Assembly: GCA_947305345.1 (NCBI GenBank)
Contig: CAMZDH010000001.1
Location: 1-22,857, forward strand
Length of the DNA stretch: 22,857 nt
DNA from: an uncultured Lachnospiraceae bacterium
GTDB lineage: Bacteria > Bacillota > Clostridia > Lachnospirales > Lachnospiraceae
Reading direction: 5' to 3'
The notes under the pieces are model-generated. The model saw only the letters and a program-made list of their open reading frames with translations, searched no databases and was not told where the DNA came from. Shown one piece after another: positions 14,728 to 19,359 of this stretch (within the stretch, counting starts at the first letter, position 1; every line of letters starts with the position of its first letter). Both the position numbers and the translations under genes were made by a program.

Positions 14728-15633
14728 TTACGCCTGAATCAAGCATTTTTCATAAATGCCCGCGCGACGGATCGCTTCAACGAGCGCTTCGCCGATCCGG
14801 TCCGGCGTCGGCGCCACGATGACGCCGCAGTTCGTCAGCGCCTCGATCTTCCCTGCCGCCGTGCCTTTGCCGCCGGAGATGATCGCGCCCGCGTGACCCA
14901 TCCGTTTGCCTTTCGGCGCGGTCTGGCCGGAGATGAACGCCGCGACCGGCTTCGTCATGTGGTCGCGGATGTATTCCGCGGCTGCTTCCTCGCCGGAGCC
15001 GCCGATCTCGCCGATCATGACGACCGCGTACGTGTCCGGATCTTCCTCAAACCGCTTTAAGACGTCAATGAAGCCCAGACCCCGGATCGGGTCGCCGCCG
15101 ATGCCGACCGCCGTCGATTGGCCGATGCCGCGCTGGCTCAGCTGGTTGACCGCTTCATAGGTGAGCGTCCCGGAGCGGCTGATGACGCCGACGTGTCCTT
15201 CCTTGTGAATGTATCCGGGCAGAATGCCGACTTTCGCCTTGCCTGGAGAGATGAGCCCCGGGCAGTTCGGGCCGACGAGCACGGTCTTCTTGCCGCGCAT
15301 ATAGTTCTTGACCCGCGCCATGTCGAGGATCGGGATACCTTCCGTAATGCAGACCACGAGGTCGAGTTCCGCGTCGATGGCCTCAAAAAGCGCGTCCGTC
15401 GCGAACTTCGGCGGAACATAGATGATGGACGCGTTCGCGTTCGTCGCTTCCTTCGCTTCTTTTACCGTATCAAAGACCGGCACGCCGAGGACTTCCTCTC
15501 CGGCCTTGCCGGGCGTGACGCCGCCGACCACCTTCGTGCCGTACTGGATCATCTGCTCGGTGTGGAACCGTCCCTGCGAGCCCGTGATGCCCTGCACCAG
15601 AAGTCTCGTATTCTGATCGACCAAGATACTCAT
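14728..15633 (-). CDS. sucD: succinyl-CoA synthetase alpha subunit
   Basis: The alpha subunit of succinate-CoA ligase binds CoA and carries the phosphohistidine. The 301-aa protein shows the CoA-binding start [24 protein letters not shown] (121-131), the GIGGDPIRG segment (177-185), and the active-site His247 in [11 protein letters not shown]. The start at 15633 is set by a perfect GGAGG 7 nt upstream and by the ATGA overlap with the sucC stop; a longer frame upstream to 15828 lies in sucC and is spurious. Translation is coupled to sucC, giving equal subunit amounts. Confidence 0.96.
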
Positions 15634-16793
15634 TTTGCACCTCCTGCCGCTTCGACGGCCTTTCTCGCCGCGTCTGCCATGTCTTCCGCCGGAATGATCG
15701 CGAGTCCGGATTCCTTCAGGATCTCCTTGCCGCGCTCGACGTTCGTGCCCTCCAGCCGGACGACGAGCGGGACCGTCATGCCGAGCTTTTTCGCCGCGGT
15801 GACGACGCCCTCGGCGATGATGTCGCATTTCATGATGCCGCCGAAAATGTTGACCATGATCGCCTTTACGTTCGGGTCGGATAATAAGATCTCAAATGCG
15901 GCCGTGACGCGTTCCGTCGTCGCGGAGCCGCCGACGTCCAGGAAGTTCGCGGGGCTGCCGCCGAACTTCTTGATGATGTCCATCGTCGCCATCGCGAGGC
16001 CGGCGCCGTTCACGAGGCAGCCGATGTTGCCGTCGAGGCTGATGTAATTTAAGTCGAATTCCGACGCGCGCGCTTCCTTCGGGTCTTCCTCGTCGATGTC
16101 CCGGAGTTCCGCGATCTCCGGATGCCGCATCAATGCGTTGTCGTCGAAGTTGACTTTCGCGTCGAGCGCTAAAATGTGGCCGTCCGTCGTCGTGACGAGC
16201 GGATTGATCTCGACGAGCGAGCAGTCCTTCTCGATGAAAAGCCGGATCATGCCGCGAAGCGTCGCGATGAATTCCTTCTGTAACGTCCCGGTGAGACCGA
16301 GCTTTTTCGCGACGCCGATGCCCTGATAGGCGCGGAAGCCGCCGAAGATCGAGACCGGCTCTTTGACGATCAGCTCCGGATGGAGCTTCGCGGTCTCTTC
16401 GATCTCCGTGCCGCCCGCTGCGCTCGCGATGATCACGAGGTTCTCGTTTTCATTGTCGGCCGCGACCGAAAGGTAGAATTCCTTTTCGTAGGAAGCCGCG
16501 CCGGTGACCAGGACTTTCCGGACGAGTTTGCCCTCGGGGCCGGTCTGATGCGTCACGAGCTGCATGCCGATCATTTTTTCTGCAATGCCGCGCGCTTCCT
16601 CAGGACTCGACGCGAGCTTCACGCCGCCGCCCTTGCCGCGTCCGCCCGAATGGATCTGCGCCTTGATCACGCATTTTTCGTAGGCTTTTGTGGCCTCGTA
16701 GACTTCTTCCGGGGTCTTGCAGACCGTGCCGGACGGAACGTTGACGCCGTAGGCGCCGAGCAGTTCCTTCGCTTGATATTCATGGATCTTCAT
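15630..16793 (-). CDS. sucC: succinyl-CoA synthetase beta subunit
   Basis: The beta subunit holds the ATP-grasp nucleotide site and the specificity region. The 387-aa length is standard. Motifs: [17 protein letters not shown], the [15 protein letters not shown] nucleotide loop (about 44-58), [34 protein letters not shown] and [12 protein letters not shown]. In this operon the enzyme most likely runs toward succinate with substrate-level phosphorylation, using the succinyl-CoA made by KorABCD. Whether ATP or GTP is formed cannot be told. AAGGAG lies in the end of korC, 3 nt separate the two genes, and the stop overlaps sucD. Confidence 0.97.
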
Positions 16794-16796
16794 GCG

Positions 16797-17282
16797 TTAC
16801 GCTCCTTCCACTAATGCGATGCCCTCGTTCAGGGCTTTCTCGTTGATGGCTTCCGTCCCCTTCGGAATGTGCAGGAACACGGCCGATTTGAGGTCTTCGT
16901 TCGAGACGAACTTCAACAGTCCGTTGATCGCGCCGACCGCGACGATGTTCGCGGTCATTGCCTTGCCGACTTTTTCGACCGCGGTCCTCAGGATCGGAAG
17001 TTTGACGACGCGGTAGCCGTTCAATGCCGCCGGAGCCGTCAGCGTGTCGTCAATGAGGACCAGGCACCCCTCGGGAAGATTCTGCCCGTAGGTGTCGAGC
17101 GATTTCTGCGTCAGCGCCATCAGAAACGTCGGATGCTGCACCTTCGTGAAGCCGATCTTTTCATCCGAAATGATGACCTCGGCCTTGCAGCTGCCGCCTC
17201 TTGCCTCCGGCCCGTAGGACTGGCTCTGTGCAGTCTGTTTGCCGGCGATCACGGCCGCTTCCCAGGCTTCCTCGAGCGACAT
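16797..17282 (-). CDS. korC: 2-oxoacid:ferredoxin oxidoreductase gamma subunit, N-terminus abnormal
   Basis: The gamma subunit of the KorABCD complex. Residues 9-161 match the family well: EAAVIAGKQTAQSQSYGPEA (8-27) then RGG, EVIISDEKIGFTKVQHP, and a C-terminal domain ending in EGIALVEGA. Family members are usually about 180-190 aa and begin with a glycine-rich GxGGQGxxxAG strand-loop; here this is missing and replaced by MSLEEAWE. The ATG lies 34 nt inside the korB 3' end, in another frame, and no ribosome binding site precedes it, unlike every other gene of the operon. MSLEEAW itself resembles the KMSPEEL element near the normal KorB C-terminus. A deletion joining korB and korC, or a sequence error, is likely; function may be impaired. 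Confidence 0.8.
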   Translation of the reverse strand: MSLEEAWEAAVIAGKQTAQSQSYGPEARGGSCKAEVIISDEKIGFTKVQHPTFLMALTQKSLDTYGQNLPEGCLVLIDDTLTAPAALNGYRVVKLPILRTAVEKVGKAMTANIVAVGAINGLLKFVSNEDLKSAVFLHIPKGTEAINEKALNEGIALVEGA

Positions 17283-18031
17283 GTCCGGTGCGCCTGCGCG
17301 GCCGTCACGAAGTTCTCCTTCTGGTTCCGCATCATGTCGACGGCGGAGCCTTTCTTGTTCTTCCGTCCGTAATAGGTCGGGCAGACGTCCGCGACTTCGA
17401 TGATCGAGAAGCCCTTGTGCGCAATGCCGTCCTGGATCAGCTTGATCGCCTGCGGCACGTGATAGACCGTGGCGTGCGCGGCATAAGTCGCGCCGGCGCC
17501 CGCGGCAAGAAGCGCCACGTCAAACGGCCGGTCAATGTTGCCGTACGGCGCGGTCGTCCCGTAATCGCCGGTCGGCGTCGTCGGGGAATACTGCCCGCCG
17601 GTCATGCCGTAGATCGAATTGTTCATCACGATGACCGTGAGGCCGATGTTCCGGCGCGCCGCGTGGATCAAGTGGTTGCCGCCGATCGCGGACGCGTCGC
17701 CGTCACCGGTGATGACGATGACTTCGAGTTCCGGACGGGCCACTTTGATGCCGGTCGCGAACGCGATCGCGCGCCCGTGCGTCGTATGGATCGTCGAGCA
17801 GTCAAAATAGCCTGCGGCCCGGCTGGAGCACCCGATGCCGGAGACGACGACCAGATTGTTCCGGTCGATCTTCAGATTTTCGATCGCCTGCGCGACGTCG
17901 CGCATGATGATGCCGTTGCCGCAGCCCGGGCACCAGATGTGCGGCAGGTGCTCCGGACGCATGTATTTGAATACCAGGTCGGAAACGTTCGCGTCCTTTT
18001 TACGGACGCCGGTCATATCAACAGCTGCCAT
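17249..18031 (-). CDS. korB: 2-oxoacid:ferredoxin oxidoreductase beta subunit, C-terminus abnormal
   Basis: The beta subunit binds thiamine diphosphate. The 260-aa protein shows HIWCPGCGNG (31-40), SGIGCSSR (64-71), the ThDP-Mg motif GDGDASAIGGNH...MNN (109-138), YGMTGGQYSPTTP (141-153) and CPTYYGRKNKKGS (217-229). After TAAQA (243-247) the sequence turns into a basic, Pro-rich, unconserved tail (HRTCRSRKPGKRP), where relatives read on with an element like KMSPEEL and a further 20-30 residues. A KMSPEEL-like string (MSLEEAW) appears in the +1-type frame and is used as the start of korC, pointing to a frame change and deletion. The start at 18031 has GGAGG 7 nt upstream; it is 2 nt after the korA stop. 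Confidence 0.9.
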   Translation of the reverse strand: MAAVDMTGVRKKDANVSDLVFKYMRPEHLPHIWCPGCGNGIIMRDVAQAIENLKIDRNNLVVVSGIGCSSRAAGYFDCSTIHTTHGRAIAFATGIKVARPELEVIVITGDGDASAIGGNHLIHAARRNIGLTVIVMNNSIYGMTGGQYSPTTPTGDYGTTAPYGNIDRPFDVALLAAGAGATYAAHATVYHVPQAIKLIQDGIAHKGFSIIEVADVCPTYYGRKNKKGSAVDMMRNQKENFVTAAQAHRTCRSRKPGKRP

Positions 18032-18033
18032 GA

Positions 18034-19158
18034 TTACGCCTCCTCGATCTTCTGTAAGATTTCCTGCGGGGTGATGACCGTGCCGTCCACCTTGCCGACG
18101 AATTTCACTTCGCAGTGATCGCCCGCGACGCGGCGCACTTCGTGGACCATCTGTCCGTAGTTGTGCTCCGCAACGACAATGCGTTTCACCTTCCGTGTCA
18201 CCGGAAGAAGCTCCCGCTCCGCGAACGGCCAGATCGTGATCGGGCGGAACATGCCGCATTTGATGCCCTTCTTCCGGGCCTCCTCCATCGCGGTGGCCGC
18301 CGCGCGGGCGGTACCGCCGAAACAGTAGATCGCGACCTCCGCGTCTTCCAAATGCGCTTCTTCCACCTGGACGATGTCTTCGTAATTTGCTTCGATCTTT
18401 TTCATCAAACGCGTCACCAGCTCGCCCGCGATCTGATTGTTGTTCGTCGGGAAGCCGGACGCGTCGTGCAGCAGACCGGTAATGTTATAGCGCTCGCCCT
18501 TCCCGAACGGCGCCATCTTCGGAACGAGCTCGCCCTCCGCGATATGATACGCGAGGTCCTTCGCGTGATACGCTTCCGGCTCGGGGCGGTTGATGACCTC
18601 GACCGACTCCGGGATCTCAATGCCTTCGCGGAGGTGTCCGACGATCTCGTCCATCAGGAAAATGACCGGCGTCCGGTATTTTTCCGAAAGGTTGAAGCAG
18701 CGCACCGCGAGTTCATACGTCTCCTTGACGCTCGACGGAGACAGCGCGATCATCGGATGATCGCCGTGCGTGCCCCAGCGCGCCATCATGACGTCGCCCT
18801 GGGAGGGGCTGGTCGGCAGGCCCGTCGAAGGCCCGGACCGCTGCACGTCCACGACGACGAGCGGGATCTCCGCAAGGCAGGCATAGCCTAAATTCTCCTG
18901 TTTTAAGGAGAATCCGGGGCCGCTCGTCGCGGTCATCGCCTTCACGCCGGTCGTCGACGCGCCGATCGCGCAGGCGATCGAAGCGATCTCGTCTTCCATC
19001 TGAATGAATTTGCCGCTCACCTGGGGGAGCCGCACGGCGCTCGCTTCGGCGATCTCCGTCGACGGCGTGATCGGATACCCGGCGTAAAACCGCATGCCGG
19101 CCGCGATCGCCCCTTCCACGCAGGCTTCATTGCCCTGCATCAGGACTGTCTTTCCCAT
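18034..19158 (-). CDS. korA: 2-oxoacid (2-oxoglutarate):ferredoxin oxidoreductase alpha subunit
   Basis: The alpha subunit supplies the pyrimidine-binding part of the ThDP site and the substrate region. The 374-aa protein has GNEACVEGAIAAGMRFYAGY (9-28) then PITPSTEI, ATSGPGFSLKQE, VDVQRSGPSTGLPT, the MARWGTHGDHP element, and a C-terminal transketolase-C-like domain (RPITIWPF, VVAEHNYGQM). This family member type is usually annotated KorA/VorB; the adjacent sucCD genes favour 2-oxoglutarate as substrate, though branched-chain 2-oxoacids cannot be excluded by sequence alone. GGAGG precedes the ATG. It is 3 nt after korD. Confidence 0.93.
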   Translation of the reverse strand: MGKTVLMQGNEACVEGAIAAGMRFYAGYPITPSTEIAEASAVRLPQVSGKFIQMEDEIASIACAIGASTTGVKAMTATSGPGFSLKQENLGYACLAEIPLVVVDVQRSGPSTGLPTSPSQGDVMMARWGTHGDHPMIALSPSSVKETYELAVRCFNLSEKYRTPVIFLMDEIVGHLREGIEIPESVEVINRPEPEAYHAKDLAYHIAEGELVPKMAPFGKGERYNITGLLHDASGFPTNNNQIAGELVTRLMKKIEANYEDIVQVEEAHLEDAEVAIYCFGGTARAAATAMEEARKKGIKCGMFRPITIWPFAERELLPVTRKVKRIVVAEHNYGQMVHEVRRVAGDHCEVKFVGKVDGTVITPQEILQKIEEA

Positions 19159-19161
19159 CGC

Positions 19162-19359
19162 TCACGCCTCCTTCTTTTCCTGTACGTAGATCGCGTAATC
19201 CGGGCAACGGAGTTCACAGGTCCCGCACAAAATGCAGTCCGTGCCCTCTTTCTCCCGTACTTTTTCGTTTTTGACCTCCAGGTGTCCCTTCGGGCAGAAT
19301 GCGGCGCAGATCCCGCAGCCCTTGCACCAGGCGGTGTTGATGATCAACTCTTTCGCCAT
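19162..19359 (-). CDS. korD: ferredoxin-type 2x[4Fe-4S] delta subunit of the 2-oxoacid oxidoreductase
   Basis: A 65-aa electron-transfer subunit with two cubane motifs: CKGCGICAAFCP (Cys12, 15, 18, 22) and CILCGTCELRCP (Cys42, 45, 48, 52). It passes electrons from the ThDP site to free ferredoxin. The basic/acidic C-terminal QEKKEA is typical of KorD. GGGAGG lies upstream of the ATG. It is the first gene of korDABC-sucCD and the one nearest the divergent lysR promoter region. Confidence 0.92.
   Translation of the reverse strand: MAKELIINTAWCKGCGICAAFCPKGHLEVKNEKVREKEGTDCILCGTCELRCPDYAIYVQEKKEA

Follow-up and report, generated by a model that had tools for sequence, protein, structure and literature searches.

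Genes at the locus

The window, i.e. the whole 22,857-nt stretch of DNA that was analyzed, is the entire contig C1 of an assembly of 880,180 bases in 166 contigs, 54.86% complete and with a contamination estimate of 0.19%. Its minus strand carries genes in the order korD, korA, korB and korC, followed by sucC-like and sucD-like frames. The features considered here are:

19162..19359, minus strand: korD-like gene for a 2x[4Fe-4S] ferredoxin, the first gene of the operon, with its ATG preceded by GGGAGGATCATTC
18034..19158, minus strand: korA, alpha subunit of a 2-oxoacid:acceptor oxidoreductase, 374 aa (PF01855, PF17147, NF006412)
17249..18031, minus strand: korB as read in the contig, 260 aa (open reading frame list, PF02775, comparison with the homologue P0121)
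17291..17430, minus strand: 3' segment of korB (residues 201-247), a foreign-looking patch of 140 nt, 97% identical to contig C13 of the congener G006
17263..17290, minus strand: linker of 28 nt between the patch and korC, with the korC ATG (17282) inside it (anchored comparison, sequence searches)
16797..17282, minus strand: korC as read in the contig, 161 aa (PF01558, comparison with the homologue P0001)
15630..16793, minus strand: sucC, downstream neighbour of korC, a 387-aa open frame

We take 19162..19359 to be korD-like from its cysteine spacing, and the names sucC and sucD are presumptive ones given on reading of the sequence alone. By Pfam and NCBIfam searches, KorA belongs to the alpha family of 2-oxoacid:acceptor oxidoreductases, KorB to the beta family and KorC to the gamma family; KorA scored 548.5 bits against NF006412 (NCBIfam cut-off 411). 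Both the gene order korD-korA-korB-korC and the domains of the encoded proteins (PF01855/PF17147, PF02775 and PF01558) are those of 2-oxoacid:ferredoxin oxidoreductases of the KorDABC/OorDABC type (PRK08659, PRK09628, PRK08537). The window differs from this type in that, at the junction, KorB has no tail and KorC lacks its first 24 residues, and in that both KorB and KorC fall under the curated NCBIfam cut-offs among the matches listed.

Among the best 80 of 592 in a contig scan, the nearest named relatives were a pair of draft genomes from metagenomes, both titled Clostridia bacterium; one came from sheep rumen, and identity to the KorB of the window was 76%. No nearer kin, as judged by KorB, was found among these 80, from which records of or near the window's own genome are possibly absent.

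Protein ends and gene spacing at the korB-korC junction

The TPP-binding domain of KorB is covered nearly in full (PF02775, 121.7 bits, cut-off 21.9, profile positions 2-151 of 151). The first-pass annotation had reported a lost KorB tail, and this was borne out. From CPTYY to its end the window KorB has only 44 residues; 115 of the 120 listed homologues showed the pattern, and these have 69-96. The C-terminal tail after GRKN (the MSPEEL...PEYT element) is absent from the window.

KorC retains most of the POR domain (PF01558, 77.2 bits, cut-off 27.4, profile positions 14-172 of 173), with positions 1-13 of the profile uncovered. Its score against the PRK08537 equivalog was 142.4 bits, below the NCBIfam cut-off of 235; truncation may not be the sole cause of this low score. 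As the earlier reading had stated, the GxGGQG motif is absent. It is present in 118 of the 120 homologues listed (the best 120 of 7973 passing the E-value threshold), the exceptions being P0095, which reads as a normal sequence with a late start, and P0116, whose motif carries a single substitution. Before SYGPEARGG the window KorC has 21 residues; 92 of the 120 listed homologues showed this pattern, with 23-41 residues ahead of it, and the minimum of 23 belongs to one single protein. An intact KorC, P0001 (178 aa), carries GSGGQG and is 97% identical to the window KorC, which lacks its first 24 residues. With P0001 as the query, the closest solved structures by sequence, 3on3 and 3g2e, aligned continuously from residue 2 or 3, indicating that the residues missing from the window KorC are part of the normal subunit.

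The start of korC lies 34 nt inside korB, in a different frame of the complement strand. The sequence 5' of its ATG, CAGGCGCACCGGAC, contains nothing that resembles GGAGG apart from an AGG at a distance of 10 nt, while korD, korA, korB, sucC and sucD are preceded by GGAG- or GGAGG-like sites (by eye). Each of these points agrees with the earlier description of the junction.

At the DNA level, 164 nt separate the CPT codons of korB from the YGPEARGG codons of korC in the window, compared to 307-453 nt at 45 other loci. The number of loci is what remains of a table of 58 rows once the 6 for the window itself and 7 duplicates of a relative are taken away; loci lacking both motifs within 800 nt were left out of the count, and some of the genomes behind it may coincide with named records. 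Between fixed anchors, the window has 176 nt and G006 has 341 nt, a difference of 165 nt. Both frames at the junction are open. The lesion is isolated, with long open reading frames on both sides. A search of the same 54.86%-complete assembly for the missing KorB tail and KorC N-terminus returned, at E up to 1, only the known site on C1. In an assembly so incomplete, absence of these pieces elsewhere is neither for nor against a chimera.

Composition of the KorB end

The best of the 120 listed KorB homologues, P0121 (287 aa), is intact and matches the window KorB at 233 of residues 1-234. After residue 234, P0121 continues with KWQKENTVTVEKAKTMSPEEL and a full tail, whereas the window reads RNQKENFVTAAQA. 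These last recognizable KorB residues of the window are absent from P0121 and occur in two of the 120 listed homologues, P0122, which is near-identical to the KorB of G006 (by eye), and P0126. The window KorB is, then, a mosaic: residues 1-234 are as in P0121 with one difference, residues 235-247 are as in G006, and residues 248-260 are encoded by the linker and out-of-frame korC. The RNQKENFVTAAQA stretch does not look native and matches a G006-like lineage.

Comparison of the DNA revealed 77.2% identity between the window and G006 over 4586 aligned bases, the patch included. The patch contains the best of 4110 overlapping 120-nt windows (117/120 identical positions; mean 92.1, sd 8.5), and the next non-overlapping window in the aligned part of the contig reached only 109/120. 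Also within the patch is a run of 62 nt (17343-17404), the longest over which the window and the fetched G006 contig agree exactly. When G006 was compared with two stretches of another relative, G012, their longest exact match (47 nt) fell at the same spot. Part of the DNA identity of the patch is attributable to protein conservation, since over 130 nt of the same korB query G012 reaches 85% identity. Since P0121 and the window agree up to residue 234, the switch point may fall anywhere from about residue 201 to residue 234 of KorB. G006 itself is not the donor, as its identity to the patch is 97%, short of 100%.

In korA, the window shares a 63-nt exact run with G012 (18946-19008), longer than the 62-nt run with G006 in korB. 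The best 120-nt window against G012 at this site has 111/120 identical positions, so that it is not clearly a patch or a switch.

The linker between the patch and korC

Sequence of korC type begins at 17262 and runs downwards from there. From residue 8 onward the window KorC is of this species' own kind (97% match to P0001), and the preceding codons, MSLEEAW, are made up of the 28-nt linker plus the first base of korC-like sequence. The earlier view of the korC start as chimeric was correct in this sense: linker codons are joined to korC of its own kind.

MSLEEAW had also been compared to the KMSPEEL element of KorB. No basis for this likeness was found in DNA. The best score of the linker against the missing-segment region of G006, G009 and G012 was reached or exceeded by 1448 of 2000 shuffles and by 1522 of 2000 random 28-mers from the window; a KorB remnant is not demonstrable, and this origin of the linker was rejected. 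The peptides MS.EEAW, DMSLEE, SLEEAW and EEAWE were met in none of the 240 listed KorB and KorC homologues.

Sources of the linker in its own genome, relatives, the order or viruses were rejected as well. None of 40 relatives contained it when up to 3 mismatches were allowed, nor did any of 391 other genomes of the order at up to 2; it had no exact match in viral contigs, and in its own genome matched nothing beyond the window itself.

Origin of the junction

We consider that the korB-korC junction is most likely a metagenome-assembly chimera, an artefact rather than biology. In a mixed sample, the assembler would have passed from the korB of this species into a G006-like korB across a stretch of identical DNA, and after at most about 140 nt would have rejoined this species' korC via the 28-nt piece, skipping about 165 nt at the second join. 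A G006-like organism would have been present in the sample, and the join would have been made during assembly and not in a cell. Several observations favour a chimera: databases hold intact P0121 and P0001, near-identical to the window subunits; the patch is 97% identical to G006, compared to 77.2% over the aligned bases; the longest exact run with the fetched G006 contig is inside this patch; the source assembly is incomplete and in many contigs; and there are, besides, the mosaic-looking P0126 and a G012 korB lying on two contigs (see below). Judged from identity alone, P0121 (on a contig of 7496 bases from NCBI) and P0001 (on one of 693 bases from ENA) presumably come from the same species as the window; provided that they do, shortening is not characteristic of the species. 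The first-pass annotation was right to treat assembly error as a live alternative.

De Bruijn assemblers cannot pair flanks across conserved regions longer than the k-mer, and mostly fragment or form a consensus, strains at 90-99% identity being meant (PMC11443906). That tendency and that range count against a chimera of species at about 77% identity. The same is true of the two joins required, with a linker that has no match in the genomes searched, of the 63-nt G012 run in korA that shows no clear switch, and of the low estimated contamination. The window is like a chimeric metagenome contig in that it turns into the sequence of a relative within its longest exact match to the fetched G006 contig, in its low-completeness, many-contig source and in the existence of near-identical intact forms elsewhere. 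It is unlike a plain strain-switch chimera in its unmatched linker and net loss: two genomes are joined at a shared exact stretch at the first join, and no shared stretch is present at the second. The linker is the least explained part of the junction and the main point against pure assembly error. If the chimera is true, a conserved stretch between related species has led to a false truncation, with false protein ends that annotation would take as real.

Filler sequence is explained more easily in a cell than in assembly, and a real event would have left it there: G006-like DNA would have entered the cell, paired homologously in the conserved korB stretch and joined illegitimately inside korC, with part of korB replaced, about 165 nt removed and the 28-nt filler remaining. 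The isolated lesion with long open frames on its flanks agrees with such an event. One homologous and one non-homologous end characterize homology-facilitated illegitimate recombination, as described in PMC3240628, and the junction as it reads in the contig has one end of each kind with the loss at the latter. For conjugation in E. coli the same source gives a frequency of 3x10^-10 per recipient cell, which speaks against a real event, since one draft assembly would have had to capture a rare occurrence. The existence of near-identical intact forms of both KorB and KorC, and the lack of the linker in the 40 and 391 other genomes searched, also argue against it, and we regard a real event as unlikely. 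A little more doubtful still is the fuller proposal that natural one-ended recombination with a sister species recently broke korBC in one strain and disabled an otherwise conserved oxidoreductase. Lacking the glycine-rich loop of KorC and the KorB tail, the complex formed after a real event would probably be inactive, and the locus would offer a modest example of a central metabolic enzyme broken by recombination between species, here in an uncultured clostridium.

In the reading preferred by the first-pass annotation, native korB-korC had simply lost about 100-150 nt and changed frame, MSLEEAW being a remnant of KorB. This reading was right in that sequence is missing (a net 165 nt compared to G006), and MSLEEAW does resemble MSPEEL at the protein level. 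A deletion in native sequence, however, does not fit the G006-like KorB end ahead of the break, nor a linker that matches the missing-segment region no better than shuffles do, and is highly improbable. In favour of a short KorBC complex conserved in one lineage, both frames are still open and the remainder of KorC is conserved. Close relatives sharing the short form, which had been proposed as a check, were not found: the short spacing occurs at 0 of the 45 other loci, just one listed KorC homologue, among the 92 that show the motif, has an N-terminus comparably short (23 residues), and near-identical proteins are intact, with P0121 and P0001 contradicting a short complex outright if they are from the same species. 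We give this possibility almost no credence.

Mosaic-looking P0126 and the split korB of G012

A second mosaic-looking KorB, P0126, is encoded on a contig of 1817 bases. Its body is G012-like (by eye) and its tail G006-like, agreeing with P0122 at 78 of the 79 alignment positions from 210 onward. P0126 is either another chimera or a product of real recombination, which in a conserved stretch would be indistinguishable from a switch-prone spot in assembly; it gives a hint that switching may happen repeatedly at this spot. The korB of G012 is split between the end of contig C20 and the start of contig C77 of that genome, the two pieces overlapping at query residues 135-150. P0126 and the broken G012 korB fit, as hints, a spot prone to switching in mixed samples.
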